Positions 1,488 to 27,157 of a stretch of 53,963 nucleotides of DNA are shown one piece after another (within the stretch, counting starts at the first letter, position 1; each line of letters opens with the position of its first letter). Made by a program: the position numbers and the translations under genes. The notes under the pieces are model-generated. The model worked only from the letters and a program-made list of their open reading frames with translations. It searched no databases and was not told the DNA's origin. This DNA comes from Bacteroidales bacterium (GTDB lineage: Bacteria; Bacteroidota; Bacteroidia; Bacteroidales; UBA4181): positions 1 to 53,963 of the forward strand of contig JAISOY010000154.1 of NCBI GenBank assembly GCA_031275285.1. Reading direction: 5' to 3'.

Positions 1488-1517
1488 TATTGAACGGATG
1501 GTAAAAATGCCAAATCT

Positions 1518-5014: not shown

Positions 5015-5098
5015 GTATATATTTATGTGATCTTTTTATGAAATATCCGACCCAATCATTAATTACCTATACTCCCACCCGATTTAACATATAAGCAA

Positions 5099-5854: not shown

Positions 5855-5858
5855 ATCA

Positions 5859-5919
5859 ATTCCGAATTCAAAATTTAAAATTCAAGATTTAGGATATTTA
5901 ATAATCTTGAATTCGGAAT
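5859..5919. repeat. Nested inverted repeats between DUF1080 and oxidoreductase genes
   Basis: The 88-nt gap contains two overlapping perfect inverted repeats. ATTCCGAATTC at 5859-5869 pairs with GAATTCGGAAT at 5909-5919, and AATTCAAGATT at 5879-5889 pairs with AATCTTGAATT at 5903-5913. The same words (TTCAAGATT, TTCAAAATT, TTGAATTTT) recur in other gaps of the window (about 30660 and 32280). The two hairpins share bases, so they are alternative folds. This could trim or attenuate the operon transcript. Confidence 0.7.
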
Positions 5920-5942
5920 TTTGAATTTTAAATAAAAATAAC

Positions 5943-7349: not shown

Positions 7350-7498
7350 GAATTAAGCACTCAGTGCTATTTATTGTTTTCTTAAGTCACATTGATCAAA
7401 TGGATTACGTTCTGAAAATATGATATTAATTGTTTTATCTTACTTATTATAAGTGTTATAGCTTTTTCAGAAAACATAGGTTATAAAACCATTCAAAT

Positions 7499-8263: not shown

Positions 8264-8280
8264 AAACTAACTTTACATTA

Positions 8281-8470
8281 AAATGTTCATAAAGTCAAAA
8301 AGTCGGAATGTTTATAAAGCTTGAATATCCCACATTACTTTTTAACTTTATAACTTTATGAACTTTTTTGCTTTTCATCTTTTAATTCATTACTCGCTGA
8401 CGCTCATGAGACCTGCTAACGCCTAAGTTCTCAATTCTCAATTCTCAATTCTCAATTCTCAATTCTCAAT
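8281..8470. repeat. Composite intergenic repeat: CATAAAGT module, GCTGACGCT core, CTCAATT tandem
   Basis: This gap between convergent genes is almost entirely repeat. It starts with GTTCATAAAGT (8285-8295), complementary to ACTTTATGAAC (8353-8363) followed by T6, which looks like an intrinsic terminator for the plus-strand protease. Next is the core CATTACTCGCTGACGCT (8388-8404), found elsewhere in the window. It ends with about six copies of a 7-bp unit (TTCTCAA) at 8428-8470. Confidence 0.8.
8285..8369 (+). terminator. Repeat-derived hairpin with T-run after the protease gene
   Basis: Perfect 11-bp arms (GTTCATAAAGT / ACTTTATGAAC) enclose inner A/T pairing (AAAAAGT / ACTTTTT). Six T residues follow on the plus strand. 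The loop is long, so efficiency is uncertain. Confidence 0.45.
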
Positions 8471-8473
8471 TAA

Positions 8474-11677: not shown

Positions 11678-11900
11678 CCTACCACTTATTTACCTGGATG
11701 GATCTTTCCATGAATCACTCTATATGAAAGAATTTAACACAGATTTGAATCCATCATATCACTATAATTCAAAACTGTAAATATAGATATTTTTGATCAG
11801 TTACGTTCAAAGGAGGGAATGATTGATGAAACATGAACCATAGCGATCATTCCGGGTATTCCTTGTCCTTCGTTTTATAGGTTCATTTAAAATAATGCGC

Positions 11901-11908
11901 TACTTTTG
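11901..11908 (+). promoter_or_regulatory. Bacteroidota -7 box upstream of mscS-like gene
   Basis: TACTTTTG matches TAnnTTTG and lies 42 nt before the ATG at 11951. No convincing -33 TTTG element is seen at the usual distance. Confidence 0.5.
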
Positions 11909-11950
11909 CATCAAATTCAATTATCAACCAATAAATTATAAGCATTGATC

Positions 11951-12799
11951 ATGGAAGAATTAAGCATGGAAAAATTATCTACCGTCAACTGGCAGGAGTT
12001 ATTATCCGGATTTGCCCACAGCCTGATCTCCTTCGGCGGAAAATTACTGATTGCGGTATTGATCTTTGTGGTGGGCCGCTGGATCATCAAAAGGATTAAC
12101 AAATTCGTAGGTAATATCATGACCAAAAAAGAGGTGGATAAATCCCTTTTTTCCTTTGTCAGGAGTTTGATCAGCATTACATTGAATTTTGTGCTCATCA
12201 TTATCATCATCAGCATTCTGGGTATAGAAACCAGCTCGTTCATCGCGCTGTTCGCTTCCGCCGGTGTGGCCATAGGTTTGGCCCTCAGCGGTACCCTGCA
12301 GAATTTCGCAGGAGGCGTCATGCTCTTGTTGTTCAAACCATTTAAAGTGGGGGATTTTATCGAGGCACAGGGACAGGGCGGAACGGTAAAAGAAATACAG
12401 ATCTTCAACACCATCCTGACTACCGGGGACAATAAAACGGTGATCATCCCCAACGGCGGATTGTCTACCGGAATGATGACCAACTACTCCACTACCGGCA
12501 CACGGCGGGTGGAATGGACTTTCGGGATTGCCTACGGCGACAGCTATGATAAAGCCAGGTCCGTAATCGAGCGGTTACTAAAAAGCGACGAACGGATACT
12601 GAACGATCCGGCATATTTCATTGCCCTGACCTCACTGGGCGACAGCTCGGTAAATATAGTGGTCCGGGCATGGGTCAATTCCGGAGATTACTGGGGGGTA
12701 TATTTCAATATGAACGAAAAGATATACGGTACTTTTGCCAAAGAAGGATTATCGATTCCTTTCCCGCAAATGGACGTACATCTATACAGTGAAAAATGA
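11951..12799 (+). CDS. MscS-family small-conductance mechanosensitive channel
   Basis: A 282-residue inner-membrane channel that opens on membrane tension to release solutes during osmotic downshock. It shows the MscS three-helix plan: hydrophobic segments near residues 20-45 and 65-90, and a pore-lining TM3 rich in Gly and Ala (LFASAGVAIGLALSGTLQNFAGGV). The conserved beta domain follows (FKVGDFIEAQGQGGTVKEIQ, VIIPNGGL). Length is close to E. coli MscS. I chose the ATG at 11951 rather than the in-frame TTG at 11945 because it fits the promoter and start-codon preference. It appears monocistronic, between a divergent kinase gene and a repeat-filled gap. Confidence 0.93.
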   Translation: MEELSMEKLSTVNWQELLSGFAHSLISFGGKLLIAVLIFVVGRWIIKRINKFVGNIMTKKEVDKSLFSFVRSLISITLNFVLIIIIISILGIETSSFIALFASAGVAIGLALSGTLQNFAGGVMLLLFKPFKVGDFIEAQGQGGTVKEIQIFNTILTTGDNKTVIIPNGGLSTGMMTNYSTTGTRRVEWTFGIAYGDSYDKARSVIERLLKSDERILNDPAYFIALTSLGDSSVNIVVRAWVNSGDYWGVYFNMNEKIYGTFAKEGLSIPFPQMDVHLYSEK

Positions 12800-13208
12800 T
12801 CCTTGTAAAGTAGAAAGGTTCATAAAGTTAGAAAGTAGAGACATTGATTATTGATGATTGTTTATTGATGATTGATTAGCTATTAGTTTATAGTTCATCA
12901 TTACTCGCTGACGCTAAGTTCATCATTCATCATTCATCATTCATCATTAATTTTTCATTTTCAACTCTCCATTTTCCATTGGTTATTACCAACAATGCTC
13001 ACTTATGCTACACAGTCATTGTCCCACAAAACAATCCTTTCATCAACAATTTTCATCCGTCCGTAAAAAACCGATCAGATTAGTAAAAAATTATTATGTA
13101 TATTTGTTTCGATTATCATCTGTCGAGTACTTCGGCACTTAATTATTTTAATCAGAGAAAAAATAAACCATTCATACATTTTTATTCATCACTTAATTGT
13201 TAACCCTT
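12800..13208. repeat. Composite intergenic repeat with CATCATT tandem and lipoprotein leader
   Basis: This 409-nt gap has a CATAAAGTT/GAAAGTAG module at 12814-12837, then ATTGATGATTG-type direct repeats. The core TTACTCGCTGACGCTAAGTT (12901-12920) follows, then four copies of the 7-bp unit CATCATT ending near 12948. The rest is AT-rich and contains the promoter and leader of the lipoprotein gene. No other coding sequence is seen. Confidence 0.75.
13099..13106 (+). promoter_or_regulatory. Bacteroidota -7 box for Cys-array lipoprotein
   Basis: TATATTTG matches TAnnTTTG about 100 nt before the ATG at 13209. This gives a leader of roughly 95 nt. No -33 element is clear. Confidence 0.5.
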
Positions 13209-14033
13209 ATGAAAAATTTTTTATGTTTACTTCTGGCAGTTTTGGCTTTTAACCTGGTATCATGTAACGATGATGACAAAGATTGCCCCGAATGCGAAAC
13301 GTGTACCGAATGTGCGGAGTGTCCTGAATGCCCGGATTGTCCTAAACCCACCACCGATGAAATCAATGAGCTGGCTTATGCCAATGAGAATGATTGGTAC
13401 AATTATGACCTGAAAGGAAAGGTAAAACAGAGGACTGAATTATACTATGGTAATGCTACTTTCGATGCCGATGGAAGTCTTTTGGAAAAAGGGGATGTAA
13501 CCCAACAACAGGTTATTGAGTTCAACAATCTGGGATTTATCACTGCAGAAAAATATTATGAACTGCGCCAGTTTAACGATGTAAATAATACAAAAAAGCT
13601 AGTCATATCTAGTGAAGAGACCTCCGCATTTAATGCCAAAGGACAGGTCACGGAAGAAATTTCTACTTCCTATCAATATTCATATAACGATCCTAATGAA
13701 GTACCTACCATTAGTTTCATAAATAAAAAAACATATACCTATACCGAAACCCAGGCTACCGAAATTGAATCTGATAGTTCTGACGGGGGGGTAACATGGA
13801 CCGATCGACAAAAAACCGTTTATGAATTAGACGAATATGGCCGTACTGATTGGAATAACTCGACCAAATATCTACCAAAGTCAACGGAATGGAATGATAC
13901 ACCAAATGAAGGAAGAGAAAATAAAGTGACAAAAGATAACAAAGGGAATATAACTTCTTCTTTACAATATAGTTTTTATCCTGGACCATATCAATACTTT
14001 GATTATTATGAATATACTTATCTGTATTATTGA
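13209..14033 (+). CDS. Lipoprotein with (Cxx)7 array and YD-like repeats
   Basis: A 274-residue lipoprotein of unknown function. I start it at the ATG at 13209, which gives a canonical signal peptide with lipobox LVSC (acylated Cys19); the in-frame TTG at 13197 is less likely. Shortly after the lipid anchor lies CPECETCTECAECPECPDC, seven cysteines spaced exactly three residues apart. The remainder has loosely repeated strands of the form EFNNLGFITAEKYYE, AFNAKGQVTEEIS and ELDEYGRTDWN, similar to YD/RHS-type repeats. This suggests an extended beta structure at the cell surface. The cysteine array could bind metal or form disulfides. Promoter upstream and perfect terminator downstream indicate a single-gene unit. 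Confidence 0.8.
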   Translation: MKNFLCLLLAVLAFNLVSCNDDDKDCPECETCTECAECPECPDCPKPTTDEINELAYANENDWYNYDLKGKVKQRTELYYGNATFDADGSLLEKGDVTQQQVIEFNNLGFITAEKYYELRQFNDVNNTKKLVISSEETSAFNAKGQVTEEISTSYQYSYNDPNEVPTISFINKKTYTYTETQATEIESDSSDGGVTWTDRQKTVYELDEYGRTDWNNSTKYLPKSTEWNDTPNEGRENKVTKDNKGNITSSLQYSFYPGPYQYFDYYEYTYLYY

Positions 14034-14094
14034 TAAATACTGGCTGTTCCAAATGATATTTCATGCGAACAGAACCATCTGATACAAGAATTAA

Positions 14095-14124
14095 TAAATG
14101 GCAGCCCGGTGAGGCTGCCATTTA
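14095..14124 (+). terminator. Intrinsic terminator after Cys-array lipoprotein
   Basis: Perfect 12-bp arms (TAAATGGCAGCC / GGCTGCCATTTA) with loop CGGTGA are followed by TCTTTTAC. It lies about 60 nt after the lipoprotein stop and upstream of the thiamine riboswitch. Confidence 0.85.
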
Positions 14125-14222
14125 TCTTTTACACAATCCGGTCTACCGTTCGACAGACACCTTTCGTATGGTGATTTTTTGCTGATACCATCACCAACAT
14201 CCTGAAACAAAAAAATAAATCG

Positions 14223-14230
14223 TATCTTTG
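14223..14230 (+). promoter_or_regulatory. Bacteroidota -7 box for thiamine operon
   Basis: TATCTTTG matches TAnnTTTG and places the transcript start at about 14237, exactly where the TPP aptamer begins. Confidence 0.65.
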
Positions 14231-14237
14231 CCGTGTA

Positions 14238-14310
14238 AACTAGGGGTGCCGAATAAAGGCTGAGATCATACCCTTTGACCTGACCGGGATAATGCCTGCG
14301 TAGGGAAGTT
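14238..14310 (+). ncRNA. TPP riboswitch (THI box)
   Basis: The region carries the conserved THI-box elements in order: AGGGGTGCC, CTGAGAT, ACCCTTTGACCTGA, GGGATAATGCCTGCGTAGGGA, closed by AACT/AGTT pairing. This is the thiamine pyrophosphate aptamer. It lies between the promoter and the thiazole synthase gene. A C-rich stretch (TCCCCCACCC, about 14316-14325) just downstream could pair with the aptamer's GGGG and form the expression platform. When TPP is bound, expression of the two downstream genes should fall. Confidence 0.95.
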
Positions 14311-14375
14311 GGAATCCCCCACCCTTCTTCTGTTCCTCTGGTTTATTAAATGAATTATCAATTTAATCAATCAAA

Positions 14376-15143
14376 ATGGAACAAACCGTATCTGCAGGAA
14401 TCATCGATTCCTATTTCAAAAAACTCAAAAAAAACCTGGCTGTAGATACAGCCATTGTCGGAGGAGGACCTTCCGGAATAGTAGCCGGATATTATCTGGC
14501 CAAAAAAGGCTATCAGGTAGCCCTGTTCGAACAAAAGCTGGCTCCGGGAGGAGGAATGTGGGGCGGCGCCATGATGTTCAATGAAATCGTGGTCCGCAAA
14601 GACGCCCTTCATATACTGGATGAATTCGGGATAGCTTACCAGGCATATGAAGACGGCTTTTACACGCTGGATTCCGTACATGCCACCGCATCGTTGATCT
14701 ACCATGCAACACAGGCCGGAGTTTCCATCTTCAACTGTGTGTCGTTCGAAGATGTGGTCTTTCAGAACGAACAGGTGGCCGGAGTGGTATTGAACTGGGC
14801 GCCGGTATCCCGGGAACGCATGCATGTGGATCCGTTGGTGGTCACGGCAAAAACAGTATTGGACGGAACAGGACACGATTGCATGGTTGCCCGCACCCTG
14901 GAAAGAAAGAACGATATCCGGCTCTTTACACCGACGGGAAAAGTGGTCGGGGAGCGTTCCCTTTCCGTGGATGAAGCGGAACGTACAACAGTAGAGAATA
15001 CCAAAGAAATATTTCCCGGATTATTTGTTTCCGGAATGGCTGCAAACGGTGTCAGCGGCGGGTTCCGCATGGGGCCTATTTTCGGGGGAATGTTACTTTC
15101 CGGGAAAAAGGTGGCTGACCTCATCGCCGAAAAACTGAAATAA
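14376..15143 (+). CDS. thi4: Sulfide-dependent ADP-thiazole synthase (archaeal-type Thi4)
   Basis: A 255-residue FAD/NAD-binding enzyme that makes the thiazole half of thiamine (adenosine diphosphate thiazole carboxylate) from NAD, glycine and sulfur. Visible are the dinucleotide motif AIVGGGPSGIVAGYYLAK, the family block PGGGMWGGAMMFNE, and the C-terminal GMAANGVSGGFRMGPIFGGM. At the site where yeast and plant THI4 use a sacrificial cysteine, this protein has His150 (RERMHVDPL). That matches methanogen Thi4 enzymes, which use free sulfide catalytically. It sits under a TPP riboswitch and 2 nt before thiE. Its presence replaces the usual bacterial ThiG/ThiS/ThiH thiazole pathway, and it may need low-oxygen, sulfide-rich conditions. 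Confidence 0.93.
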   Translation: MEQTVSAGIIDSYFKKLKKNLAVDTAIVGGGPSGIVAGYYLAKKGYQVALFEQKLAPGGGMWGGAMMFNEIVVRKDALHILDEFGIAYQAYEDGFYTLDSVHATASLIYHATQAGVSIFNCVSFEDVVFQNEQVAGVVLNWAPVSRERMHVDPLVVTAKTVLDGTGHDCMVARTLERKNDIRLFTPTGKVVGERSLSVDEAERTTVENTKEIFPGLFVSGMAANGVSGGFRMGPIFGGMLLSGKKVADLIAEKLK

Positions 15144-15145
15144 CC

Positions 15146-15757
15146 GTGGAATCATTCGGAGTATATATCATTATGACCCGGCCGGTATTACCGTACACGG
15201 TCATTGCTGAAAAATGCGTCGCAAATAAGGTCAAAATGCTTCAATTGCGGGAGAAGCATCTTCCGGACAAGGAGTTATTACGTATCGCCCGGGATATCCG
15301 CCGGATCACCAGAGGTACCGGCACCCGGCTGGTGATCAACGACAGGCCGGATATAGCCGTCCTTTGTGATGCGGATTATTTACATCTGGGCCAGGACGAC
15401 ATCAGTATCGAAGATGCCCGGAAGATCGTCGGCGACATGAAAATAGGATTATCGACCCATTCTATCCAACAAGCGAAAAAAGCACTGGCTGAACGTCCTG
15501 ATTACATAGGGTTCGGACCAGTCTATCCGACCAATGCGAAAGCCATACCCGATCAACCGACAGGTGTGGAACCGCTTAAGGAAGTACTGGGGTTTTCGAA
15601 TGTTCCCGTTGTGGCCATAGGCGGAATATTTCCTGAAAACATGCAGGAAATACTGGATGCCGGAGCCGCAAATATTGCCATGGTCCGTTATTTCATGCAA
15701 TCGGAGGATTTTCAAGAAAGGCTCTCCGGAATAAACCAACGACTCCGTCAGGAATAA
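15146..15757 (+). CDS. thiE: Thiamine phosphate synthase
   Basis: A 203-residue TIM-barrel enzyme that joins hydroxymethylpyrimidine diphosphate and thiazole phosphate to thiamine phosphate in the cytosol. Family motifs are present: KMLQLREKHL (QxRxK), LVINDRPDIA, DYLHLGQDD, IGLSTHS, DYIGFGPVYPTNAK and VVAIGGIFPENM. It starts with GTG at 15146, two bases after the thi4 stop, so translation is probably coupled. Both genes are controlled by the upstream TPP riboswitch and end at a strong terminator. Confidence 0.95.
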   Translation: MESFGVYIIMTRPVLPYTVIAEKCVANKVKMLQLREKHLPDKELLRIARDIRRITRGTGTRLVINDRPDIAVLCDADYLHLGQDDISIEDARKIVGDMKIGLSTHSIQQAKKALAERPDYIGFGPVYPTNAKAIPDQPTGVEPLKEVLGFSNVPVVAIGGIFPENMQEILDAGAANIAMVRYFMQSEDFQERLSGINQRLRQE

Positions 15758-15809
15758 AATAACCCTGCAATATATTTTTCCCGAAGGAAAAATATATTGC
15801 AGGGTTATT
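15758..15809 (+). terminator. Perfect long terminator hairpin after thiE
   Basis: A 24-bp perfect inverted repeat (starts AATAACCCTGCAATATATTT) with a 4-nt loop begins directly after the thiE stop codon and ends in GGGTTATTT. The stem is unusually long and may act in both directions. Confidence 0.85.
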
Positions 15810-16159: not shown

Positions 16160-16834
16160 TCAATTATTTAATCCGTATACTGCGCGCAGGACCCAATAAT
16201 CCGCATCGGAATCAATATCGAAAGGATACTCGACCAACTCATTAAGGTACAGGGACATTTGTCCGTTCTGTTCCCGGTATACGCCGTTTTTAATGCCCGA
16301 ATGATCGACCATCAAGCCGAAACGGCCTTTGATACGATGGATATTTTCTTTCACTACCCGTTCATAAAATAAGATATCCCCATTCTTGTATTCAAAATTT
16401 TCCGGAAGGCTTTCCTGATCCTCTATTTCGAATGCCATTAAGCCGAATCTGGCATTGGAAGGGATCACTATGTGCGGTAATTTCCTGATAAATGCTTCAT
16501 CACGATAATTATCGATGTAATCGGGAAGATAAGCTGCCGAGACATAGGGGATCCCGGTCATTCGATGGTTTCTTTTCAGATCCTCCGTTTCCAGTACCAA
16601 TCCGGTATTGTATTTCAATAATTCATTTACTGAAAGGTCTTTTTGGATAAAGTCGTCGAGGGGTATGCCAAAATATTTAGCAATTTCAACCACTACTTCT
16701 ATCTTTGGATCTGCCCTTAATTCCTCATAGGAAGATACGTTTCCCCGAGACAATTGAAAAATATCAGCAAAGGCTTGCTGGCTCAAACCCTTGACATTCC
16801 TGATCTTTTTAATATTTTTTCCAATCCTGCTCAT
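16160..16834 (-). CDS. XRE-family regulator with degenerate S24/LexA-like C-terminal domain
   Basis: A 224-residue transcription regulator. Residues 4-58 form a Cro/CI-type helix-turn-helix (IKKIRNVKGLSQQAFADIF, NVSSYEELRADPKIEV). The C-terminal half resembles the S24 peptidase fold of LexA/CI repressors (FGLMAFEIEDQESLP followed by KNGDILFYERV). The usual GDSM catalytic context is not preserved, so self-cleavage is doubtful and ligand or partner binding more likely. It is divergent from the YbjN/PspA/flotillin genes, with a palindrome between the two promoters. I infer that it regulates itself and that gene set. Confidence 0.82.
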   Translation of the reverse strand: MSRIGKNIKKIRNVKGLSQQAFADIFQLSRGNVSSYEELRADPKIEVVVEIAKYFGIPLDDFIQKDLSVNELLKYNTGLVLETEDLKRNHRMTGIPYVSAAYLPDYIDNYRDEAFIRKLPHIVIPSNARFGLMAFEIEDQESLPENFEYKNGDILFYERVVKENIHRIKGRFGLMVDHSGIKNGVYREQNGQMSLYLNELVEYPFDIDSDADYWVLRAVYGLNN

Positions 16835-16851
16835 AAAAAATATCTTTTTTA

Positions 16852-16926
16852 TTTGGTATGTAAATTTTTTTAGCTATTTTTGCTAAAAATATGATGCAAA
16901 TATAAGGCTTTTTATCAAAAAGCAAA
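16852..16926. promoter_or_regulatory. Overlapping divergent promoters with palindromic operator
   Basis: Plus strand: TTTG (16852-16855), 19-nt spacer, TATTTTTG (16875-16882), a near-ideal Bacteroidota promoter for the YbjN/PspA genes. Minus strand: CAAATATA at 16897-16904 reads TATATTTG, with TTTG (complement of 16923-16926) 18 nt upstream, serving the XRE gene. A perfect inverted repeat TTTTTAGC / GCTAAAAA with a 7-nt loop (16867-16889) covers the plus-strand -7 box and the predicted minus-strand start site. This is a good candidate operator for the XRE protein. Confidence 0.65.
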
Positions 16927-16972
16927 TATTACATCGAAAGGGTTTTATGAACAACACTTAAAATTTACGCCT

Positions 16973-17362
16973 ATGTATTACAAAAAAATCGAATCATACA
17001 TATCCCAGCTCGGATATACGATTACGTTCCAGGACGAAAAGGAAGGCATATTTTGTATTGAAAACGAGGCAGACGGTATAAAAAACCTGATCATCGGGGT
17101 AGCACCTCCCATCGTCGTAATGGAGCAGTTTATCTTTACTATGAAGAGCAATGATCAGGAGATCATGAAATCATTGCTTCAAAAAAACCGGGACATTGTA
17201 CATGGTGCCTTTGTCCTCGATGAAACGGGCACCAAAGTTATTTTCCGGTATACCATGCAGGTGGAAAGCCTGGATATTAATGAACTGGAAGGCGCCCTGA
17301 ATTCGCTGGGACTTTTACTGAGCGAATATTACGAACAGATCATCGAATTTAGCAGGAAGTAG
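16973..17362 (+). CDS. YbjN-like small protein
   Basis: A 129-residue cytosolic protein with alternating beta-strands and helices (YYKKIESYISQLGYTITFQD, FIFTMKSNDQEIMKSLLQKN, GAFVLDE). The pattern resembles YbjN/type III chaperone-like proteins. No catalytic motif is seen. It is the first gene after the strong divergent promoter and precedes pspA by 63 nt. A role as adaptor or chaperone in the membrane-stress gene set is inferred from position only. Confidence 0.65.
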   Translation: MYYKKIESYISQLGYTITFQDEKEGIFCIENEADGIKNLIIGVAPPIVVMEQFIFTMKSNDQEIMKSLLQKNRDIVHGAFVLDETGTKVIFRYTMQVESLDINELEGALNSLGLLLSEYYEQIIEFSRK

Positions 17363-17425
17363 AAAGTATAAAAGTTATAAAGTTGGAAAGTAAAGACAGA
17401 AGATTAAATTTTAAAATATAATACC

Positions 17426-18136
17426 ATGAATATTTTTAAGAGGCTTTTAAGGATCGGGCAGGCCGAAATCCATTCGGCAGTAGATAAAATGGAGGACCCC
17501 ATTAAAATGACCGAACAGGGGATCCGTGAAATGAAGGAAGACCTGGAAAAGACAGTAGAATCACTGGCTAAAGTAAAAGCAATGGCTATCCGGACCAAAA
17601 ACGAAAAGAACAAAAAAGTGGTCGAAGCGCAGGATTACGAAAACAAGGCCGTTTTATTGTTGTCCAAGGCGCAAAAAGGCGAACTGGATATGGTTCAGGC
17701 AGAAAAACTGGCACGTGAAGCGCTGGCCATTAAAGAACGTTTATTCAATGAATGTGCGGATCTGGGCGGGCAACAACAGACACACGAAAAAGCTGTGGAT
17801 GATATTCAGAAAAATGTGGACATCCTGAAATTCAACATCAATAAATGGGAAAATGAACTGAAAACACTCAGGGCCAGGGTAAAAGTAAGCCGTGCCACCA
17901 AAGAAGTCAACAAACAAATGGCCCAGATAGACAGCAACAGTACCATCAGTATGTTGGAGCGGATGAAAGAAAAGGTGGAAGAGGAAGAAGCACTGGCACA
18001 GGCTTATGGTGATCTTGCCAAAAATAACAAGTCTGTGGATGATGAAATCAACCATGCCATCGGCAGCGAAGCGGAAAAAGTAAACCAGGACCTGGATGAA
18101 ATTAAAAAGAAACTGGGCATTATCTCCGGTGTTTAG
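17426..18136 (+). CDS. pspA: PspA/IM30 (ESCRT-III-superfamily) membrane-remodelling protein
   Basis: A 236-residue, almost wholly helical, highly charged protein. The N-terminal amphipathic helix MNIFKRLLRIGQAEIHSAVD and following DKMEDPIKMTEQGIREMKED are typical of PspA/IM30. Long coiled-coil helices follow (about residues 25-190). PspA proteins polymerise on the inner face of the cytoplasmic membrane and stabilise or remodel it under stress; they belong to the same superfamily as eukaryotic ESCRT-III. Here it shares a strand with a flotillin and a giant AAA ATPase rather than with PspF or PspBC. That suggests a different control and disassembly machinery. Confidence 0.93.
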   Translation: MNIFKRLLRIGQAEIHSAVDKMEDPIKMTEQGIREMKEDLEKTVESLAKVKAMAIRTKNEKNKKVVEAQDYENKAVLLLSKAQKGELDMVQAEKLAREALAIKERLFNECADLGGQQQTHEKAVDDIQKNVDILKFNINKWENELKTLRARVKVSRATKEVNKQMAQIDSNSTISMLERMKEKVEEEEALAQAYGDLAKNNKSVDDEINHAIGSEAEKVNQDLDEIKKKLGIISGV

Positions 18137-18162
18137 TGCATCCGCATTTTGTAACTTTAACA

Positions 18163-18170
18163 TATTTTTG
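18163..18170 (+). promoter_or_regulatory. Possible internal -7 box after pspA
   Basis: TATTTTTG matches TAnnTTTG 72 nt before the membrane-protein start at 18242. It may allow separate expression of the downstream part. No properly spaced -33 element is seen. Confidence 0.35.
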
Positions 18171-18241
18171 TTCGTATCTAATTAAATGTTAATTTAGTAT
18201 TTCGAAAAGTCAAAGGGGTAATTTGTTACAACCATAATTTA

Positions 18242-18802
18242 ATGAATATGAATTCCAGAACATTGTGGACCATCATTATCAAAGTTTTAGGCATTGTACT
18301 GATTGTTCAGTTTATTCCTTATCTGGTACAATTCATCGCTGTATTACCTTTAAGTATAGCAAGACCTTTCTCTGAATTCATCCTGATGGCAGGCATATCT
18401 ACATTGACTATAGTCGTTTATCTATTCCTGCTATGGCTTTCTTTTTTTAAAACATCATGGATCATTGATCGGCTCAGGTTGGAAAAAGGAATGGAAAACC
18501 AGAAAATAGAGTTCCCAACGGATCGAAAAGTAATACTATCCATTGTAATTATGGTTACCGGAGGATTTATCCTGGTCAGAAGTATACCCGGCCTGCTCGG
18601 ATCGCTTTATCAATTTTCCCAGAATAGTAATGTACTTTTCCAACATAGAGTTTCTGCGAATGGAATCATTATCAAAGTCTCAGAAGCATTGATCGGTCTG
18701 TTATTGTTTGTGTACGGAACCCCCATAGGTAACTATATAGATAAAAAAACAAAAAATGAGATTACCGAAGAAGGAAACAACGTAGATACGAATCATGAAT
18801 AA
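18242..18802 (+). CDS. Four-helix membrane protein, unknown
   Basis: A 186-residue integral membrane protein with four hydrophobic segments at about residues 8-35, 45-70, 95-120 and 140-160, and a charged C-terminus (DKKTKNEITEEGNN). I do not recognise the family. It lies between pspA and the YqiJ-like gene on the same strand (105 and 27 nt gaps), so it is probably part of the same membrane-maintenance set. Confidence 0.7.
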   Translation: MNMNSRTLWTIIIKVLGIVLIVQFIPYLVQFIAVLPLSIARPFSEFILMAGISTLTIVVYLFLLWLSFFKTSWIIDRLRLEKGMENQKIEFPTDRKVILSIVIMVTGGFILVRSIPGLLGSLYQFSQNSNVLFQHRVSANGIIIKVSEALIGLLLFVYGTPIGNYIDKKTKNEITEEGNNVDTNHE

Positions 18803-18829
18803 TTTTATTTAACCATAGATATCGATTTT

Positions 18830-19522
18830 ATGACCGAAATCCTGCATACACTTTTTAATCCCTTACCTAATGCGGTCATGACCGTTTTAATGGGGGTAAT
18901 AGTTGTATATTGGTTGTTTGTGATGCTGGGCGGCGCAGGATTCGGCGATGTAGACCTGGGTATCGGTTTCGGCGATGTAGACGTAGATGCGGATGTGGAA
19001 ATCCCGGATGTAGATGCAACAGCAGATTCCGACAGTGATGTCCCGTTGGAAAAATCGGAAGGTGCCATGTCCCGATTCCTCAATTACCTGAATATCGGAA
19101 AGGTGCCGTTCATGCTGGTACTCTCCACATTCAAATTCCTTACCTGGATGTGTACCCTCATCACGACCCAGTTCATTGCCATGGAATCATGGGGAGCAAA
19201 GTCTTTACTGATCCTGGTACCTATGTTTGCTATAGGAATAGTATTCACCAGATATGCCACTAAACCAATGGTTCGATTTTTCAAAAAAATAGGATACCAG
19301 GGCGAAGAGGAAATAGATTTTCTCGGACGCTCGGGTAAAATGCTGTCCACGATCAAAGAACAGAAGATCGGGTGTGCCGAATTCATCATCGATCGTAATC
19401 CGATGAAATTAAATGTAGTCAGTCATACAGGAGAGGAGATCTCTTATGGCGATACCGTAATGGTGACTGATGAATCGGATGACAGGAAGATTTATTATGT
19501 CACTAAGGAAATAACACTTTAG
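18830..19522 (+). CDS. YqiJ/NfeD-like membrane protein with OB-fold domain (DUF1449-like)
   Basis: A 230-residue protein. It has an N-terminal membrane helix (about 15-38), then an acidic Asp/Gly-rich linker with near-repeats (GFGDVDLGIGFGDVDVDADV). Two more helices follow (about 90-140), then a C-terminal beta domain (about 160-230: IDFLGRSGKMLSTIKEQKIG, SYGDTVMVTDESD) typical of NfeD/YqiJ OB-folds. Such proteins are encoded next to flotillins (E. coli YqiJ-YqiK) and are thought to anchor or scaffold them. The flotillin gene lies just downstream here, matching that pairing. Confidence 0.8.
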   Translation: MTEILHTLFNPLPNAVMTVLMGVIVVYWLFVMLGGAGFGDVDLGIGFGDVDVDADVEIPDVDATADSDSDVPLEKSEGAMSRFLNYLNIGKVPFMLVLSTFKFLTWMCTLITTQFIAMESWGAKSLLILVPMFAIGIVFTRYATKPMVRFFKKIGYQGEEEIDFLGRSGKMLSTIKEQKIGCAEFIIDRNPMKLNVVSHTGEEISYGDTVMVTDESDDRKIYYVTKEITL

Positions 19523-19558
19523 TAGAGTGATAAGTGATCAACATTAGTCGTGAATAAT

Positions 19559-19777
19559 ATGGACAAGTTAGTTACTGTTTTTTCCGCTCCCCATCTGCAT
19601 GAGATCGGTATTCCTCAAAGCCTGCTCGAATCGGAAGGGATCAAATGTTTTATCAAAAACGAAATGATCGGAGCATTATACTCGGGTGTCATCGGCAACA
19701 TCCAGCTACAGGTTTCTGCGGATGATGCGCCAAAAGCCATTGAGATACTGGCCAATGGAGGATTCAGTTACGAATAA
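19559..19777 (+). CDS. DUF2007-type small signal-transducing protein
   Basis: A protein of about 72 residues with a ferredoxin-like pattern: KLVTVFSAPHLHEIGIPQSL, then LESEGIKCFIKNEM, then LQVSADDAPKAIEIL. This is the DUF2007 signature, a family annotated as putative signal-transducing and related to PII-like folds. I prefer the ATG at 19559; an in-frame GTG at 19550 would add three residues. It sits between the YqiJ-like and flotillin genes. Function unknown. Confidence 0.75.
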   Translation: MDKLVTVFSAPHLHEIGIPQSLLESEGIKCFIKNEMIGALYSGVIGNIQLQVSADDAPKAIEILANGGFSYE

Positions 19778-20052
19778 TGAATGGTAAATCATAAGATTGG
19801 GAACTCATCTGTTGTGGGGGTAGAGTATATGTAAAAAAGATTTTAGGGATATCATTTTGGCAGGGGTAGATAAATGGAAGGACGTAAGGTATCGTTTTCT
19901 CCAGGATGGGACAGCTTGTCCTTAAAATCGGGACGGGAAAACATTCCGTGGGAAAGAAATAGATTCCCGAGAAGAAAAATGTATCCGCAACATATTTAGT
20001 AAAGGAAAATTAATCACATAGTAAAAATCATAAATCAATAAACCAATAAAGT

Positions 20053-22143
20053 ATGGGAAACATCATTGTCATTTTTGCAGGGAGCTTCTTATTTATTATC
20101 CTTGTTTTTCTGGCCATACTGGCCTCATTCTACAAAAAGATCCCCCAGGGGAAATCGATTGTCCGGACCGGGGTCGGCGGAACAAAAATAGCATTCAACA
20201 AAGGGATGTATGTGATCCCCATTTTCCATAAGATGGAAATCATGGATATCTCCGTTAAAAAACTGGAGATCGACCGTGCAAACCATGACGGGTTGATCTG
20301 TAAAGACAACATACGTGCCGATATCAAGGTGGCATTCTTTATCCGGGTGAATAAATCGGCCAATGATGTGATCAATGTCGCCCAGACCATTGGTTGTGAA
20401 CGCGCCAGTGATGTGGCTACCCTTAAGAACCTGTTTGAAGCCAAGTTCTCCGAAGCATTGAAGACTGTAGGTAAAAAATTCGATTTCATTGAACTATACG
20501 AAGCACGCCGCGAGTTCCGGGATGAAATTATGAATATCATCGGTACCGACCTGAATGGTTATAACCTGGATGACTGTGCTATCGACTATCTGGAACAAAC
20601 CGACCTGAAATACATGAGCCCTGAAAATATCCTGGACTCGGAAGGTATCAAAAAAATTACGGAACTGACCGCAGCGCAGAACATAAAATCCAATCTTATT
20701 CGTCGTGATGAAGAAAAGACCATCAAAAAACAGGATGTAGAAGCCCGTGAAGCCATTCTCGAACTGGAAAGGCAATTAGCTGAAAAAGAAGAGAAGCAAA
20801 GACGTGAAATCGACAATGTGAAAGCCCGCGAAGAGGCCGAAATCATCAAGGTACGTGAAGAGGAACGGCTAAAATCACAGACTGTACGTATTTCCACTGA
20901 AGAAAGCCTGGCCATACAGGAAGAAAATAAGTTGCGCCAGATCATTATCGCCGAAAAGAACAAGGAACGGACGGAAGCCGTGGAAAAAGAACGCGTAGAA
21001 AAAGACCGTGCTTTGGAACAAACGGAACGTGAAAGAATCGTAACATTGGCCGAGATCGATAAAGAAAAGGTCATCGAAATAGAGAAAAAGAACATCCAGG
21101 ATGTAATCCGCGAAAGAGTAGAACTGGAAAAAGGCGTGGTAGAAGAAAAGCAGAATATGAAGGATATTGAGGCTTTCAGGGAAATAGACCGCCGGAAACA
21201 GGTAGGTATTACAGCAGCCAGCCAGGTCGCAGAAGAGCGATTGATAGGTACGGTGAAAGAAGCCGAAGCACAAAAGAAAGCTTCCGAAGAGAAAGCGGAA
21301 CAAATGCGGATCGATGCTGAAGCCAAAGCCAAACAATTGTTGATCGATGCCGAAGCACGCAAAGAAGCGTCTGTAAAACAGGCCGAAGCCCGGAAGATAC
21401 TCGCGGAAGCACAAGCCCGTGAAGAAGCGACCATGGGATTATCCGAAGCCGAAGTCATGCATGCCAAAGCGGAAGCAACTGAAAGACAAGGTCTGGTAGA
21501 TGCTACCATCATTGAAAAGAAAGCAAAAGCAGAAGCCACAGGTATCGAAGCAAAAGCCGATGCTAAAAAGAAAGAAGGACTGGCAGAAGCACAGGTGATC
21601 AAGGAAAAAGCACTGGCAGAAGCCGCCGGTATCGAAGAAAAGGCCGAAGCCATGAAAAAACTGGACGGTGTCGGAAAAGACCACGAAGAATATAAGTTAT
21701 TGCTCCAGAAAGAAAAAGAAGTGGAGCTGGCACAAATCCATGTACAGAAAGATATTGCGGAAGCACAGGCAGAAGTACTGGCAGAAGCCATGAAATCCGC
21801 GAAAATCGACATTGTTGGCGGCGAAACCATGTTCTTCGACAACATCATCAACCAGATTTCCAATGCCAAAGGATTTGACCGCCTGATCAATGAAAGCTCG
21901 AATGCCACACAGCTCAAAGATGCTTTACTGGGTGACGGCTCTGAAGGCAGCGATATATATGCCCGGATCAGGGGATTGGCTGAAAAACTCAATATTTCAT
22001 CCGAAGATATCAAGAACTTAAGCGTTGCAGGTTTGATCCTGAAAATGCAGCAAAACTCGGACGAAGAAGATCAGGGTATACTCAGCAACCTGATGGGATT
22101 GGCCAAAAATTTAGGTATTTCAGGTAAGAAGTTGCCTAAATAA
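20053..22143 (+). CDS. Flotillin-like SPFH/Band 7 protein
   Basis: A 696-residue membrane-scaffold protein. It begins with an N-terminal hydrophobic segment (residues 3-26), then an SPFH domain (about 30-200: VRTGVGGTKIAFNKGMYVIP, IRADIKVAFFIRVN). A very long coiled coil follows (about 205-570) with dense Ala-Glu-rich repeats (AEAKAKQLLIDAEARKEA). The C-terminal helical domain (about 590-690) is larger than in short flotillins. Flotillins organise fluid membrane microdomains on the cytoplasmic face. Its neighbours match the YqiJ-YqiK arrangement, plus PspA and the AAA ATPase. The 275-nt gap upstream shows no clear promoter. Confidence 0.92.
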   Translation: MGNIIVIFAGSFLFIILVFLAILASFYKKIPQGKSIVRTGVGGTKIAFNKGMYVIPIFHKMEIMDISVKKLEIDRANHDGLICKDNIRADIKVAFFIRVNKSANDVINVAQTIGCERASDVATLKNLFEAKFSEALKTVGKKFDFIELYEARREFRDEIMNIIGTDLNGYNLDDCAIDYLEQTDLKYMSPENILDSEGIKKITELTAAQNIKSNLIRRDEEKTIKKQDVEAREAILELERQLAEKEEKQRREIDNVKAREEAEIIKVREEERLKSQTVRISTEESLAIQEENKLRQIIIAEKNKERTEAVEKERVEKDRALEQTERERIVTLAEIDKEKVIEIEKKNIQDVIRERVELEKGVVEEKQNMKDIEAFREIDRRKQVGITAASQVAEERLIGTVKEAEAQKKASEEKAEQMRIDAEAKAKQLLIDAEARKEASVKQAEARKILAEAQAREEATMGLSEAEVMHAKAEATERQGLVDATIIEKKAKAEATGIEAKADAKKKEGLAEAQVIKEKALAEAAGIEEKAEAMKKLDGVGKDHEEYKLLLQKEKEVELAQIHVQKDIAEAQAEVLAEAMKSAKIDIVGGETMFFDNIINQISNAKGFDRLINESSNATQLKDALLGDGSEGSDIYARIRGLAEKLNISSEDIKNLSVAGLILKMQQNSDEEDQGILSNLMGLAKNLGISGKKLPK

Positions 22144-22152
22144 TTAAAATTT

Positions 22153-22186
22153 ACCCTGAAAGGAGCATAACTGTTCCCTTCAGGGT
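22153..22186 (+). terminator. Hairpin between flotillin and AAA ATPase genes
   Basis: ACCCTGAA (22153-22160) pairs with TTCAGGGT (22179-22186). An A/T-rich stretch follows but no strong T run. It may partly end transcription or adjust the dose of the ATPase. Confidence 0.45.
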
Positions 22187-22233
22187 CTTAAAATTTATTA
22201 AGCTGTTTTTGTTATTAGCAAGTTGACGAATAC

Positions 22234-25200
22234 ATGCAAGACATAAAAAATAAACAACCGGCTGACAATCTGGATGCCGGCACCTATGAAATCATCCGTA
22301 AGCGGCTTTTTACACAAAGGGATGAGCTGACCAAACGGTTGAACCTATTGAATGACGCCCGTAAGGAAGTGTTTCGTTCCATTGAGTTTACTTTACTGGC
22401 CAACCAGCGGATCACCACGGAAAACAACTGCGTAGCACGGGGGATCATGGCTTTCGGCAATCTCTGTATCTTCGGTTATAACGTACATTTCGGCCTGCGG
22501 TCGGATATCCAGTTAAGCGATGTATTCAGCATTTATCAGTTTGAAAATAACCAGTTCATACCACAGTCGCTGGACCTGATCAACGACAAGGCCTTTATCA
22601 ATGACTACCAGAACCTGTATAAATATTACCGGGATTCGATATTCTCCCGCTTCAGGAAAACTGAAAACTACCTGTATATGGTCTTCCAGACCAGTAAAAA
22701 TACGGGGGACCTGAAAGCATTCAAATGGCTGATCAAAGGTAATCAACTGATATACCAGGATGACAGAAGTATTCATGAGGTAAAAAAAGCACAGCAGCAT
22801 GAATGCCAATGGCAGAAAACGACCCTCGATGACCGCCGTTTAGGCGTCCACCCCCATATCTCCATTATGGATAAGGTATTTATCGAAGCGTTAGGTGGCG
22901 ATATTACCTTTAAAATAGAAGACAATACACAGAGTGGAAAAGGCGTATATGAAGAAAAGGTAGAAAATAAGGACCAGCAGATCGACGATGCCGAATATTA
23001 TTATGCCGACCTGGGAAATCTTATTTTACTGAGAATTAAACCCTATCAGGAGGAATTCCGGGCCTATGTGTTCAATACCAGGACAAAAGAGGTACTGAAT
23101 ATCCCTGCATTGAATGATGCCGGCGTACTTCTTCCCGATAATCACGGTATTATCTTTCCTAACGGTTATTATTTACAGAACGGGGAATACAAAATATTTG
23201 AAAATGAGCTGAACGGACTGGAATTTTTCCGTAAAGTAGCCTCTCCCAACGGAGAAGATTTTCTGTATATTTTTTACCAGAATGAACGGAATACCTACGT
23301 GGTCATGTCGTATAACATCATCCGGCAGCAGGTGGAAACCCCGATCATATGTAACGGGTTTACCCTGTTTGGTGACGGTACGCTCATCTATTTCCGCTCG
23401 GAAGCAGAGGCTACCCGGCATCATCAGGTGCAGATCTGGCAAACCCCTTATCAGGTCAGGCTAACGGAAAATCAGGAAAAAAAAGAAAACCAGCTGTACA
23501 AAATCGGGAATAAAGACATTGTAAAGGCAATGGCCGAATGCCAGGAAGTCATTCATCTGATCAATAAGGAAGATTCCTATGAAGACCTGTATGAAGATAT
23601 CGTAAAAAAATCCAATGATATCATCGATGCCTATTTCTGGGTATCGGATAAAGGAACGTTTGCTCTTTCCGAACCGTTGCGGCAGATCAGGGAAATAGCA
23701 GATACAGCCATTGACGAGTTCGAAAAGGTACAGGCCCAGAAAAAGCATGCTACCCAGATATTGTCTGCAACTGAAGAAAAGGTAGAGGCCTTGCTATCGG
23801 ATATCAAGCACGCCAAATCCAATACCTTGGAATCATTGGTCAAATCGTTGGCTGAAACCAGAAAGCTGCAAGGTGAGGTCATCGAGCTCCAACAGGTAAA
23901 ATACATCGATCTACCCAAAACCGAGGCCTTAAAGGAAGAACTCGGAACGACCAATACCCGCCTTTCTGAAAAGACGGTCGAGTTCCTTCTCAGGGATGAA
24001 GCCCTGGTGCCTTATGAGGAGAAAGTCAGGAATGAGAAAAAGCAGGTAGAACAGGTAAAAAAAGTCATCGATGCCAACAAAATTGACGAAAACTGTAAGC
24101 TGATCTCGTCCGAACTGGAATTACTGATCGATATCCTGAACAGCCTGAAGATCGAAGACGCCACACAGACAACACGGATTATCGAAAAGATCTCATTGAT
24201 TTTTTCTTCGCTCAACGAAGTACGGGCGCAACTCAAAAGGCAGACCGATGCATTAAAAAGCAGTGAAGCGGTAGCCGGATTCCATGCCCAACTGACATTG
24301 CTGGAGCAAACAGTGGTTAATTTCCTGGAACTCTCCTCTTCCCCTGAAAAATGCGATGAATATTTCTCCAAGATCAGTATCCAGGTAGAAGAACTGGAAA
24401 GCAAATATGCCGACTTCGATGATTTTATCATCAAAATATCGGATAAGCGCAATGAGATCACCAAGGCTTTTGACGGACGTAAAGCCCAGTTGATAGAACA
24501 GATCAACCGGCGTACTTCCTCATTGGAACAGATAGGGCTCAGGGTATTGAAAAATGTTGAAAATAAAGCCCAGTCATTCAAGACCCGGGAAGAGATACAG
24601 GCGTTTTTCTCCACCGACCTGATGATCGATAAGGTCAGGAAACTGGTGGAAGAGTTAAAAAGCCTGGGAGATGTATCAAAGGCCGAGAACCTCGAAAACA
24701 GCCTGAAAACATCATTGGAAGATGCATTACGTATACTCAGGGACCGCAATGAACTGTTTGCCGATGGAGAGCAGATCATCAGCCTGGGTAGTTACAAATT
24801 TTCCGTCAACCGCCAGCCACTCGATCTCACCATCGTAAGACGGGAGGATCGATTATTTTTCCATCTGATCGGAACCAGTTTCTACCATGAATTACCGGAT
24901 GAAGATATCAGCCATTACCGTGAATTCTGGGAACAGGAGGTTATTTCGGAAAACCGTGAAGTATACCGTGCCGAATACCTGGCTTTTGAAGCTTTCCTCG
25001 AGAAACAGCAGTCGAAAAACTTCGATCTGAAAGGCTATATCACCCGGAAAGTGGAGCAAAGCTATTCGGAATCATACATGAAAGGTGTACATGATTTCGA
25101 TGCCATGCGCATCTTTGAAGCGCTGGATCATGCCAGTCACCAATTAGGTGTTTTATCATACAGCCCCCAGTTGCGTGTTGCTGCGCAACTTTTCTGGAAC

Positions 25201-27087
25201 AACCTGGAAAAAGAGGAAAAAGATAAGCTGATCAAACTGATCACCTCTGCCGGTAAGGTATTAAAAGCTTTTCCGGATTCAGGCAATTATCAGTATGTCA
25301 TCAATCATATCAGTAGTTTATTTGCGGAATGGGACAACGGATTTGCTATAGATATTTCTGCCGATGAAGCAGCCAGGTATCTTTTCAGTGAGTTTTCCGG
25401 CTCCACTCTCTTTTCAAAAAGTGAACAGGCTGATCAGTTATATAAAGATTTTCTGCAATACTTAAAAAAGAACAAATTCCTACCGGATTTTGAAGCTGAT
25501 ATACATGATGTATCATTTGACCTGATCGAAAGGTTTTATCTGGTCCGCAACTGGCTGGCATCCTTTCTCGATATTTCTCCGGAACACGGCATTTACCGGA
25601 AGTATGCGGATGAAACCTCCTGTCTGCTTCTGTTCGAAGGAAAAGGATACCAGATACACAGCGGGCCGGACCAACTCATCATCCATGACCTGAAAGGCAA
25701 CCATCCTGTCATTGAAAACGGCGAATACAATCAGGATTACCATGATTTTATCCGGAAACTGACCCGGTTCAAAAACATCAGTGTGCCCTCTTTCAGTAAT
25801 TATACCCGGCTAAAGGAATCCATGATCGACCGGTTTCGGAAAGCGTTGAAGATTGATGAGTTGAAACCGCGGGTATTGACATCTTTCGTGCGAAATAAAC
25901 TGATCAATGAAGTATACCTTCCGCTGATCGGCGCTAATTTAGCGAAGCAATTAGGCGTAGCTGGCGAAAATAAGCGCACGGCGCGCATGGGAATGTTGTT
26001 GCTGGTATCACCTCCGGGTTATGGTAAAACAACTTTAATGGAATATCTGGCCAAAACCATGGGATTGACTTTTGTAAAGATAAATGGTCCCACCATCGGG
26101 CATTCCATTACATCGATCGACCCTGTCGAAGCGAAAACTTCAGGTGCACGAGAGGAATTGAAAAAAATCAACCTCTCCTTTGAAATGGCTGATAATGTGA
26201 TGTTGTATATCGATGATATCCAGCATTGTAATCCTGAGTTTTTGCAGAAATTCATTTCCCTTGCCGACGGACAACGAAAAATGGACGGTATCTTCGAAGG
26301 TGAAAGTAAAACCTATGACCTGCGTGGAAAGCGTTTCTGTGTCATCATGGCCGGAAACCCATATACCGAAAGCGGCGAAAAATTCAGGATTCCCGATATG
26401 CTGGCCAACCGCGCCGATGTATATAACCTTGGGGATGTCATCGGCGACTCCGAAAATTTATTCAAATTGAGCCTGCTGGAAAACTCGATCATTGAAAATC
26501 AATACCTGCAGAAGATCACCAATAAAAATTTCCCGGATTTTTATCAGTTGATGGAATATGTGGAAACAGGAAATGAAGCATTACTCAATCTGGAAGGTAA
26601 TCATACCCAGCAGGATGTGGATGATTTTATTGCTGTGGCAAAAAGTTGCCTGCAGGTAAGGGAGATCGTACTACAGGTAAACCAGAACTATATTGGCAGT
26701 GCCGCCATGCAGGATGCCTACCGTACCGAACCATCATTCAAATTGCAGGGCTCGTACCGCGACATGAATAAAATGGTTAGCCGGATCATCCCCCTGATGA
26801 ATCAGGAAGAGATCAACACGCTTATCCTGAATCATTATGAAAGCGAAGCTCAGACACTGACCTCAGATAGTGAGGCGAACCTGTTGAAATTAAAGGAAAT
26901 TGCAGGTTTGTTGACTCCAAAGGAAAGTGAACGTTGGGAAAGTATCAGGGAAATATTCCGGAAAAACAATAAGTTGTCCGGCATTGGGCAGGATAATCCG
27001 ATCGGACAGGTGGTAGCACAGCTGGCTCAATTCAACGAAGGATTGGATGGAATCAAAAACGTACTGAATTCAGAGAAAAAACGTTAA
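22234..27087 (+). CDS. Giant DUF3686 / AAA+ ATPase
   Basis: A 1617-residue cytosolic protein. The N-terminal ~450 residues (LDAGTYEIIRKRLFTQRDEL, RITTENNCVARGIMAFGN, IFGYNVHFGL) match the DUF3686 family, often labelled 'DNA repair ATPase' without solid proof. Residues about 480-850 form long coiled coils. A mixed domain follows (about 870-1240), then a classic AAA module: Walker A SPPGYGKTT with Lys1265, Walker B VMLYIDDIQH with Asp1327/Asp1328, and IMAGNPYTESGEKFRIPDML. In several phyla this family occurs with flotillins. Beside PspA it could act as a Vps4-like remodelling motor on PspA or flotillin polymers. That idea is inference. The gene ends at a strong terminator. Confidence 0.88.
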   Translation: MQDIKNKQPADNLDAGTYEIIRKRLFTQRDELTKRLNLLNDARKEVFRSIEFTLLANQRITTENNCVARGIMAFGNLCIFGYNVHFGLRSDIQLSDVFSIYQFENNQFIPQSLDLINDKAFINDYQNLYKYYRDSIFSRFRKTENYLYMVFQTSKNTGDLKAFKWLIKGNQLIYQDDRSIHEVKKAQQHECQWQKTTLDDRRLGVHPHISIMDKVFIEALGGDITFKIEDNTQSGKGVYEEKVENKDQQIDDAEYYYADLGNLILLRIKPYQEEFRAYVFNTRTKEVLNIPALNDAGVLLPDNHGIIFPNGYYLQNGEYKIFENELNGLEFFRKVASPNGEDFLYIFYQNERNTYVVMSYNIIRQQVETPIICNGFTLFGDGTLIYFRSEAEATRHHQVQIWQTPYQVRLTENQEKKENQLYKIGNKDIVKAMAECQEVIHLINKEDSYEDLYEDIVKKSNDIIDAYFWVSDKGTFALSEPLRQIREIADTAIDEFEKVQAQKKHATQILSATEEKVEALLSDIKHAKSNTLESLVKSLAETRKLQGEVIELQQVKYIDLPKTEALKEELGTTNTRLSEKTVEFLLRDEALVPYEEKVRNEKKQVEQVKKVIDANKIDENCKLISSELELLIDILNSLKIEDATQTTRIIEKISLIFSSLNEVRAQLKRQTDALKSSEAVAGFHAQLTLLEQTVVNFLELSSSPEKCDEYFSKISIQVEELESKYADFDDFIIKISDKRNEITKAFDGRKAQLIEQINRRTSSLEQIGLRVLKNVENKAQSFKTREEIQAFFSTDLMIDKVRKLVEELKSLGDVSKAENLENSLKTSLEDALRILRDRNELFADGEQIISLGSYKFSVNRQPLDLTIVRREDRLFFHLIGTSFYHELPDEDISHYREFWEQEVISENREVYRAEYLAFEAFLEKQQSKNFDLKGYITRKVEQSYSESYMKGVHDFDAMRIFEALDHASHQLGVLSYSPQLRVAAQLFWNNLEKEEKDKLIKLITSAGKVLKAFPDSGNYQYVINHISSLFAEWDNGFAIDISADEAARYLFSEFSGSTLFSKSEQADQLYKDFLQYLKKNKFLPDFEADIHDVSFDLIERFYLVRNWLASFLDISPEHGIYRKYADETSCLLLFEGKGYQIHSGPDQLIIHDLKGNHPVIENGEYNQDYHDFIRKLTRFKNISVPSFSNYTRLKESMIDRFRKALKIDELKPRVLTSFVRNKLINEVYLPLIGANLAKQLGVAGENKRTARMGMLLLVSPPGYGKTTLMEYLAKTMGLTFVKINGPTIGHSITSIDPVEAKTSGAREELKKINLSFEMADNVMLYIDDIQHCNPEFLQKFISLADGQRKMDGIFEGESKTYDLRGKRFCVIMAGNPYTESGEKFRIPDMLANRADVYNLGDVIGDSENLFKLSLLENSIIENQYLQKITNKNFPDFYQLMEYVETGNEALLNLEGNHTQQDVDDFIAVAKSCLQVREIVLQVNQNYIGSAAMQDAYRTEPSFKLQGSYRDMNKMVSRIIPLMNQEEINTLILNHYESEAQTLTSDSEANLLKLKEIAGLLTPKESERWESIREIFRKNNKLSGIGQDNPIGQVVAQLAQFNEGLDGIKNVLNSEKKR

Positions 27088-27103
27088 GTTTGAAAAAATC
27101 CAT

Positions 27104-27157
27104 GTTCAAAGTTCCGGGCTCAAAGTTGAAACTTACATCCGGAACTTTGAACTTTTT
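27104..27157 (+). terminator. Intrinsic terminator after AAA ATPase gene, built from TTCAAAGTT words
   Basis: Perfect 14-bp arms (GTTCAAAGTTCCGG 27104-27117 / CCGGAACTTTGAAC 27139-27152) are followed by TTTTT. The arm words recur as tandem repeats at 52341-52380. Confidence 0.85.

Follow-up and report, generated by a model that had tools for sequence, protein, structure and literature searches.

A flotillin, YqiJ and DUF3686 ATPase gene module with an optional PspA block in a Bacteroidales genome: a candidate MoxR-type motor for membrane assemblies

A 53,963-nucleotide contig of a Bacteroidales bacterium (JAISOY010000154.1 in assembly GCA_031275285.1; GTDB lineage Bacteroidota, Bacteroidia, Bacteroidales, UBA4181), here called the window, carries a module of seven co-oriented genes and a divergent XRE regulator gene. 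The module encodes PspA, a flotillin with a YqiJ-like membrane partner, and a very large DUF3686/AAA+ ATPase. Comparison across genomes identifies flotillin and YqiJ as the constant partners of the ATPase and PspA as part of a separately regulated, optional block, and structural models place the ATPase domain closest to the MoxR type. The operon type and the idea of an ESCRT-like role have been known since Ravi et al. (mSystems 2024; PMC11237479), and the window is a further example; what it adds is the grouping of the parts and a motor domain that appears unlike the eukaryotic and archaeal Vps4 motor. The position and order of all genes, given below, agree with a preliminary description made from the sequence alone.

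16160–16834, minus strand: XRE-family regulator (Pfam HTH_3, E 2e-10), divergent from the other module genes
16852–16926, no strand assigned: divergent promoter-like region, read off the sequence, with Bacteroidota-type boxes
16973–17362, plus strand: CesT/Tir-type chaperone-fold protein (YbjN/YjfI-like), first gene of the dyad (CesT_Tir_1 PF22550, E 7e-52)
17426–18136, plus strand: PspA/IM30, ESCRT-III superfamily (PspA_IM30, E 2e-45)
18242–18802, plus strand: hydrophobic membrane protein with four transmembrane segments, no family (no Pfam match)
18830–19522, plus strand: YqiJ/YuaF-like (NfeD-type) membrane partner of flotillin (YqiJ_N, E 4e-7)
19550–19777, plus strand: small DUF2007 protein (DUF2007, E 2e-11)
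20053–22143, plus strand: flotillin-type SPFH (Band 7) protein with an N-terminal membrane segment and a long coiled coil (Band_7, 53.7 bits)
22234–27087, plus strand: 1617-residue DUF3686/AAA+ protein (DUF3686, E 6e-170; DUF7902; AAA_5/AAA)
27104–27157, plus strand: rho-independent terminator (14-bp stem, T5)

Most of these assignments stand as first proposed. The window PspA matches positions 1–212 of the 220 in the PspA_IM30 profile, so that the domain spans the full length, as expected of an ESCRT-III homologue; an own-genome search returned this single match, making it the sole PspA of its genome. The first gene had been called YbjN-like; a weak YbjN match exists (E 0.003), and CesT_Tir_1 is the closer family. 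The flotillin gave no Pfam match when the window protein was run through hmmscan. In a six-frame search of its own genome, its N-terminal part clears the Band_7 cut-off of 23.6 bits with the score listed above; Band_7 also matches 4 of 27 homologues, at E values down to 2e-14, the PDB yields a weak match to QmcA, and counterparts in relatives are annotated as flotillin or SPFH proteins. The terminator, described as strong, consists of a perfect 14-bp inverted repeat (27104–27117/27139–27152) followed by TTTTT (-24.4 kcal/mol, z -6.3).

Linkage of the module genes is evident in several samples. The largest, which is biased, comprises the best 80 of at least 529 DUF3686 loci from 84,980 species genomes, together with 7 obtained in a draw across the phylum. 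The ATPase is readable at 86 of these loci: 62 retain the order divergent XRE, CesT, PspA, YqiJ, flotillin and AAA with its orientation, 21 keep (YqiJ-)flotillin-AAA but lack the CesT-PspA dyad, and in 3 the contig ends after 0.1–2.1 kb of sequence upstream of the ATPase gene, which contains no flotillin. YqiJ is found in 82 of the 87 loci. In unbiased samples, DUF3686 is present in 8 of 296 phylum genomes and in 18 of 395 class genomes. PspA scores above cut-off in all 18 of the class genomes with DUF3686 versus 34 of the 377 others (Fisher p 7e-18, uncorrected for kinship, although the DUF3686 genomes represent 16 or 17 genera); it is linked to the ATPase in 12 of the 18 and lies at a separate site in the remaining 6. 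Of 17 readable class loci, 16 have flotillin beside the ATPase. For other phyla, 10 records of the plasmid collection PLSDB were inspected (Pseudomonas, Proteus, Vibrio, Halomonas, Photobacterium, two of Streptomyces, Nonomuraea, Deinococcus and Hymenobacter): flotillin lies directly upstream of the ATPase in 10/10 and YqiJ is present in 9/10, with PspA in the cluster in only 2/10. Pseudomonadota, Actinomycetota and Deinococcota all have examples of the YqiJ-flotillin-AAA+ triad. The linkage is real, and the claim of a conserved co-oriented module holds; rare adjacency of DUF3686 to PspA or flotillin, the warning sign set in the preliminary description, is not seen.

Individual loci vary on this theme. 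On the megaplasmid pQBR103 (1043–14247), a run of YjfI, PspA, rhomboid, DUF2491, DUF350, DUF1190 and glutathionylspermidine synthase genes is followed directly by YqiJ, SPFH and DUF3686, placing two of the groups of Ravi et al. in a single co-oriented run. The PLSDB records for Proteus mirabilis (4.1 Mb) and Nonomuraea (11.9 Mb) are labeled plasmids and are chromosome-sized. The flotillin is present as two adjacent open reading frames at five loci (L021, L052, L066, L068 and L085); such pairs may reflect a split gene, a frameshift or a duplication. A species congeneric with that of the window has a solitary DUF3686 ATPase (L107 in genome G298, 7085–11920) with no flotillin within 7 kb; it starts 20 bases past a histidine kinase gene and is adjoined by rny-like and zapA-like genes.

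The module divides into two blocks. XRE, CesT and PspA occur at 63 loci each and always together, XRE being found in no locus without CesT-PspA, and CesT adjoins PspA in every relative that has the dyad. Since the three are present or absent together and the ATPase tree shows at least 9 changes in the state of the dyad, the block seems to be acquired or lost as a whole. Co-divergence provides soft evidence that agrees with gene linkage: partial correlations of pairwise distances over the 63 full loci are 0.59 for AAA-flotillin, 0.47 for YqiJ-flotillin, 0.39 for CesT-PspA and 0.09 for AAA-PspA. The four-segment membrane protein and DUF2007 recur in no other module locus of the biased and class samples, and the former has one distant match among 60 relatives; they were therefore rejected as conserved components and are most likely local passengers. 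The slot between PspA and YqiJ, which the membrane protein gene occupies in the window, is variable in relatives. At L028–L035, L047–L056 and L085 it holds unrelated small genes that differ by genus, encoding short 'FEYK...GWELV' proteins, three-transmembrane proteins or 'GADAVINVRL' proteins. In Aquimarina, the gap between flotillin and AAA contains small proteins with one transmembrane segment, often in tandem, that share an 'EPVSEE' motif (L047, L052, L053, L056, L085 and L087).

The ATPase itself is composed of an N-terminal helix, a predicted β-propeller (residues ∼50–405), a coiled-coil and helical region that includes DUF7902, and a C-terminal AAA+ domain (∼1213–1560). AlphaFold2 models were built with 42–45 homologues, plasmid-derived rows excluded, and have pLDDT (predicted local distance difference test) scores of 87.5 and 84.7. 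In fold comparison, the model of residues 50–405 matches the WDR propeller of DCAF1 (Z 10.4). The AAA+ model best matches MoxR activases, with Z 16.1 over 253 residues (root mean square deviation 3.7) for CbbQ (6l1q) and Z 12.3–15.4 for NorQ (15.4 for 9qh4); matches are lower for dynein, Rea1 and Clp (∼12.5) and for Cdc48/p97 (∼12). Sequence profiles are divided, with Pfam AAA and AAA_5 scoring about equally and PDB and Pfam matches split among classical AAA, AAA_5 and RuvB (the PDB matches covering the P-loop only), so the assignment of the domain as closest to MoxR-type AAA+ relies on comparison of predicted folds. The Walker motifs had been called intact, and both are present and largely invariant among relatives: the window protein has Walker A SPPGYGKTT, Walker B YIDDIQ, a sensor-1 Asn, the Arg of LANR and sensor-2 GSYR, and its relatives have invariant SPPGYGKT, IDDIQ, GNP at sensor 1, the LANR Arg and the GSYR sensor-2 Arg.

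This architecture speaks against kinship with Vps4, to which the preliminary description likened the module. A Pfam scan detects no MIT domain in it, its N-terminal part is a predicted β-propeller, and the modeled ATPase fold is nearest to MoxR-type AAA+. Having no MIT domain, it falls outside Vps4 as recognized by that domain (PMC10936438). The DUF3686 protein could still act like Vps4 in function. Doubts voiced earlier about the 'DNA repair' label of this family appear justified, as nothing here supports the label; a literature search found no paper naming DUF3686 and none on a 'DNA repair ATPase' with flotillin. The label therefore seems unhelpful for DUF3686 proteins.

The XRE gene diverges from the dyad in 63 of 63 loci carrying it. 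The helix-turn-helix is conserved in an alignment of 66 XRE proteins, and the C-terminal half resembles LexA/S24 regulators. Of the XRE/S24-like regulator in the preliminary description, the divergent XRE part stands, and the S24 part survives in shape at most: the alignment contains no conserved Ser/Lys pair in that half, so self-cleavage of the S24 type was set aside as unlikely on sequence grounds. Promoter-like boxes are found on the plus strand (TTTG-N19-TATTTTTGC, 16852–16883) and on the minus strand (TATATTTGC box, 16896–16904), and those in 16852–16926 fit the Bacteroidota -33/-7 promoter consensus. The motif TTTGC[AT]AA is overrepresented, with 94 occurrences versus 8.6 expected across 59 homologous intergenic regions. 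It was first read as an operator, but the Bacteroidota -7 box likewise has the form TAnnTTTGC, and the overlap makes the enrichment compatible with operator or promoter alike. In the Pseudomonas aeruginosa bac operon, loss of the CesT-fold protein BacA raises BacB–F 6- to 13-fold (PMC2587700, PMC10948618), suggesting that a chaperone-like protein holds back the operon that encodes it. The CesT protein of the window may, by analogy, do likewise.

Beyond the XRE gene, a very long (20-bp), near-perfect hairpin (15760–15807), probably a shared two-way terminator, separates the module from two flanking thiamine genes, Thi4-like (14376–15143) and ThiE-like (15146–15757). These are preceded by a thiamine pyrophosphate riboswitch (14232–14323; Rfam, 64.7 bits).

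The preferred explanation, to which we assign a probability of about 0.55, is an envelope-stress module: the AAA+ protein would remodel flotillin/YqiJ assemblies while PspA repairs the membrane alongside. In the core block, the flotillin scaffold and its YqiJ partner would sit in the membrane and be served by the large cytoplasmic ATPase, whose MoxR-type AAA+ ring would be joined through coiled coils to the β-propeller that probably docks on the client. The ATPase would most likely remodel or disassemble flotillin/YqiJ assemblies together with their cargo. In the optional block, the divergent XRE protein may control the CesT-type chaperone and PspA; PspA, as an ESCRT-III-family protein, would coat and repair damaged inner membrane, and the CesT protein probably holds PspA in check and helps to regulate the operon. 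Assembly of the AAA+ domain into a ring, the motor's client, the nature of the inducing stress and the direction of regulation are suppositions of this model. A functional tie between such proteins has been seen in Bacillus subtilis, in which the SPFH protein YdjI is required to localize PspA to the membrane (PMC8581546). Three points weigh against this explanation. Adjacency is not absolute, as two loci (L107 and L157) have an ATPase without a nearby flotillin; the co-divergence values confound gene length and saturation, and include a partial correlation of 0.63 for AAA-XRE that has no obvious meaning; and deletion of paFlo3, the flotillin of the P. aeruginosa bac operon, cuts biofilm by only ∼20% (PMC13086221).

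The choice of client separates this explanation from a competitor raised in the preliminary description and also by Ravi et al., in which the AAA+ protein would serve as a functional counterpart of Vps4 and dismantle ESCRT-III-like PspA polymers after repair. Presence of PspA in every class genome with DUF3686, including the 6 in which it is unlinked, conservation of the operon, and the ESCRT-like complexes proposed by Ravi et al. (PMC11237479) all favor PspA as client. On the other hand, the ATPase is tied more tightly to flotillin/YqiJ than to PspA, which is not adjacent at most related loci of other phyla, and the ATPase has no MIT domain by Pfam scan and a predicted fold of the MoxR type rather than classical AAA. 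PspA as the client is thus rather doubtful, and flotillin/YqiJ is the better first guess, because both linkage and co-divergence are tighter than with PspA. A broader proposal is that the DUF3686 protein works specifically as the motor of flotillin cages, and of PspA coats where present, and came to a Vps4-like job by convergence rather than descent. We hold this only tentatively; if true, a MoxR-type ATPase with a propeller adaptor would be a bacterial machine doing the job of Vps4 on flotillin and ESCRT-III polymers.

MoxR AAA+ proteins are maturation chaperones, for example of Rubisco and nitric oxide reductase, and flotillin-type scaffolds gather membrane complexes. With CbbQ and NorQ as the nearest modeled folds, the ATPase might instead be an assembly or maintenance chaperone for other membrane complexes, for which flotillin and PspA are a platform only. 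The vWA partner usual in typical MoxR systems is absent from the module proteins in a Pfam scan, however, and no conserved enzyme client adjoins the module, leaving this alternative on the unlikely side. A role in anti-phage defense, as raised in the preliminary description, fares worse and is very improbable. PspA is classically phage-induced, and the patchy distribution noted above, the XRE regulator and the large ATPase would suit a defense system, but PADLOC gives only generic helix-turn-helix, coiled-coil or P-loop matches, no phage or viral copies of the module were found, and the flanking genes are for thiamine and sugar degradation rather than a defense island. The preferred explanation, remodeling of flotillin/YqiJ assemblies, names a specific candidate motor for bacterial ESCRT-III relatives and flotillin cages.

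Several known systems share parts of this arrangement. The window has the same genes and ATPase architecture as the operon of Ravi et al. (PMC11237479), namely the CesT/Tir-PspA dyad, flotillin, a YqiJ/YuaF-type protein and the coiled-coil/β-propeller AAA+ protein, and adds the four-segment membrane protein and DUF2007. The same study also noted the shorter YqiJ-flotillin-AAA form; its main text does not mention a divergent XRE tied to the dyad or a MoxR-type fold. The P. aeruginosa bac operon (bacA–F), which has biofilm and virulence phenotypes (PMC2587700, PMC10948618), resembles the window in its CesT-fold BacA, PspA-like BacB, short NfeD protein BacC and SPFH protein BacD, expressed as a single transcript, but differs in having a BacA of the DUF2170/YjfI type and a sigma-54 promoter. 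In B. subtilis pspA-ydjGHI (PMC8581546), an SPFH protein likewise works with PspA at the membrane, although without an AAA+, CesT or YqiJ partner. The MoxR activases CbbQ and NorQ, closest to the window AAA+ domain in predicted fold with best matches at Z 14.5–16.1, are proteins of ∼270 residues paired with vWA proteins, whereas the window ATPase has 1617 residues, a predicted propeller and a coiled coil, and no vWA gene nearby. In the Vps4-ESCRT-III systems of archaea and eukaryotes, as in the window, genes for an ESCRT-III-family protein and an AAA+ ATPase occur together. Vps4, however, is recognized by its MIT domain or ESCRT neighbors (PMC10936438), in contrast to the predicted β-propeller and MoxR-type AAA+ domain of the window protein. 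This difference argues against carrying details of Vps4, such as MIT-type docking, over to the DUF3686 ATPase, and the comparison with Vps4 is functional at most.

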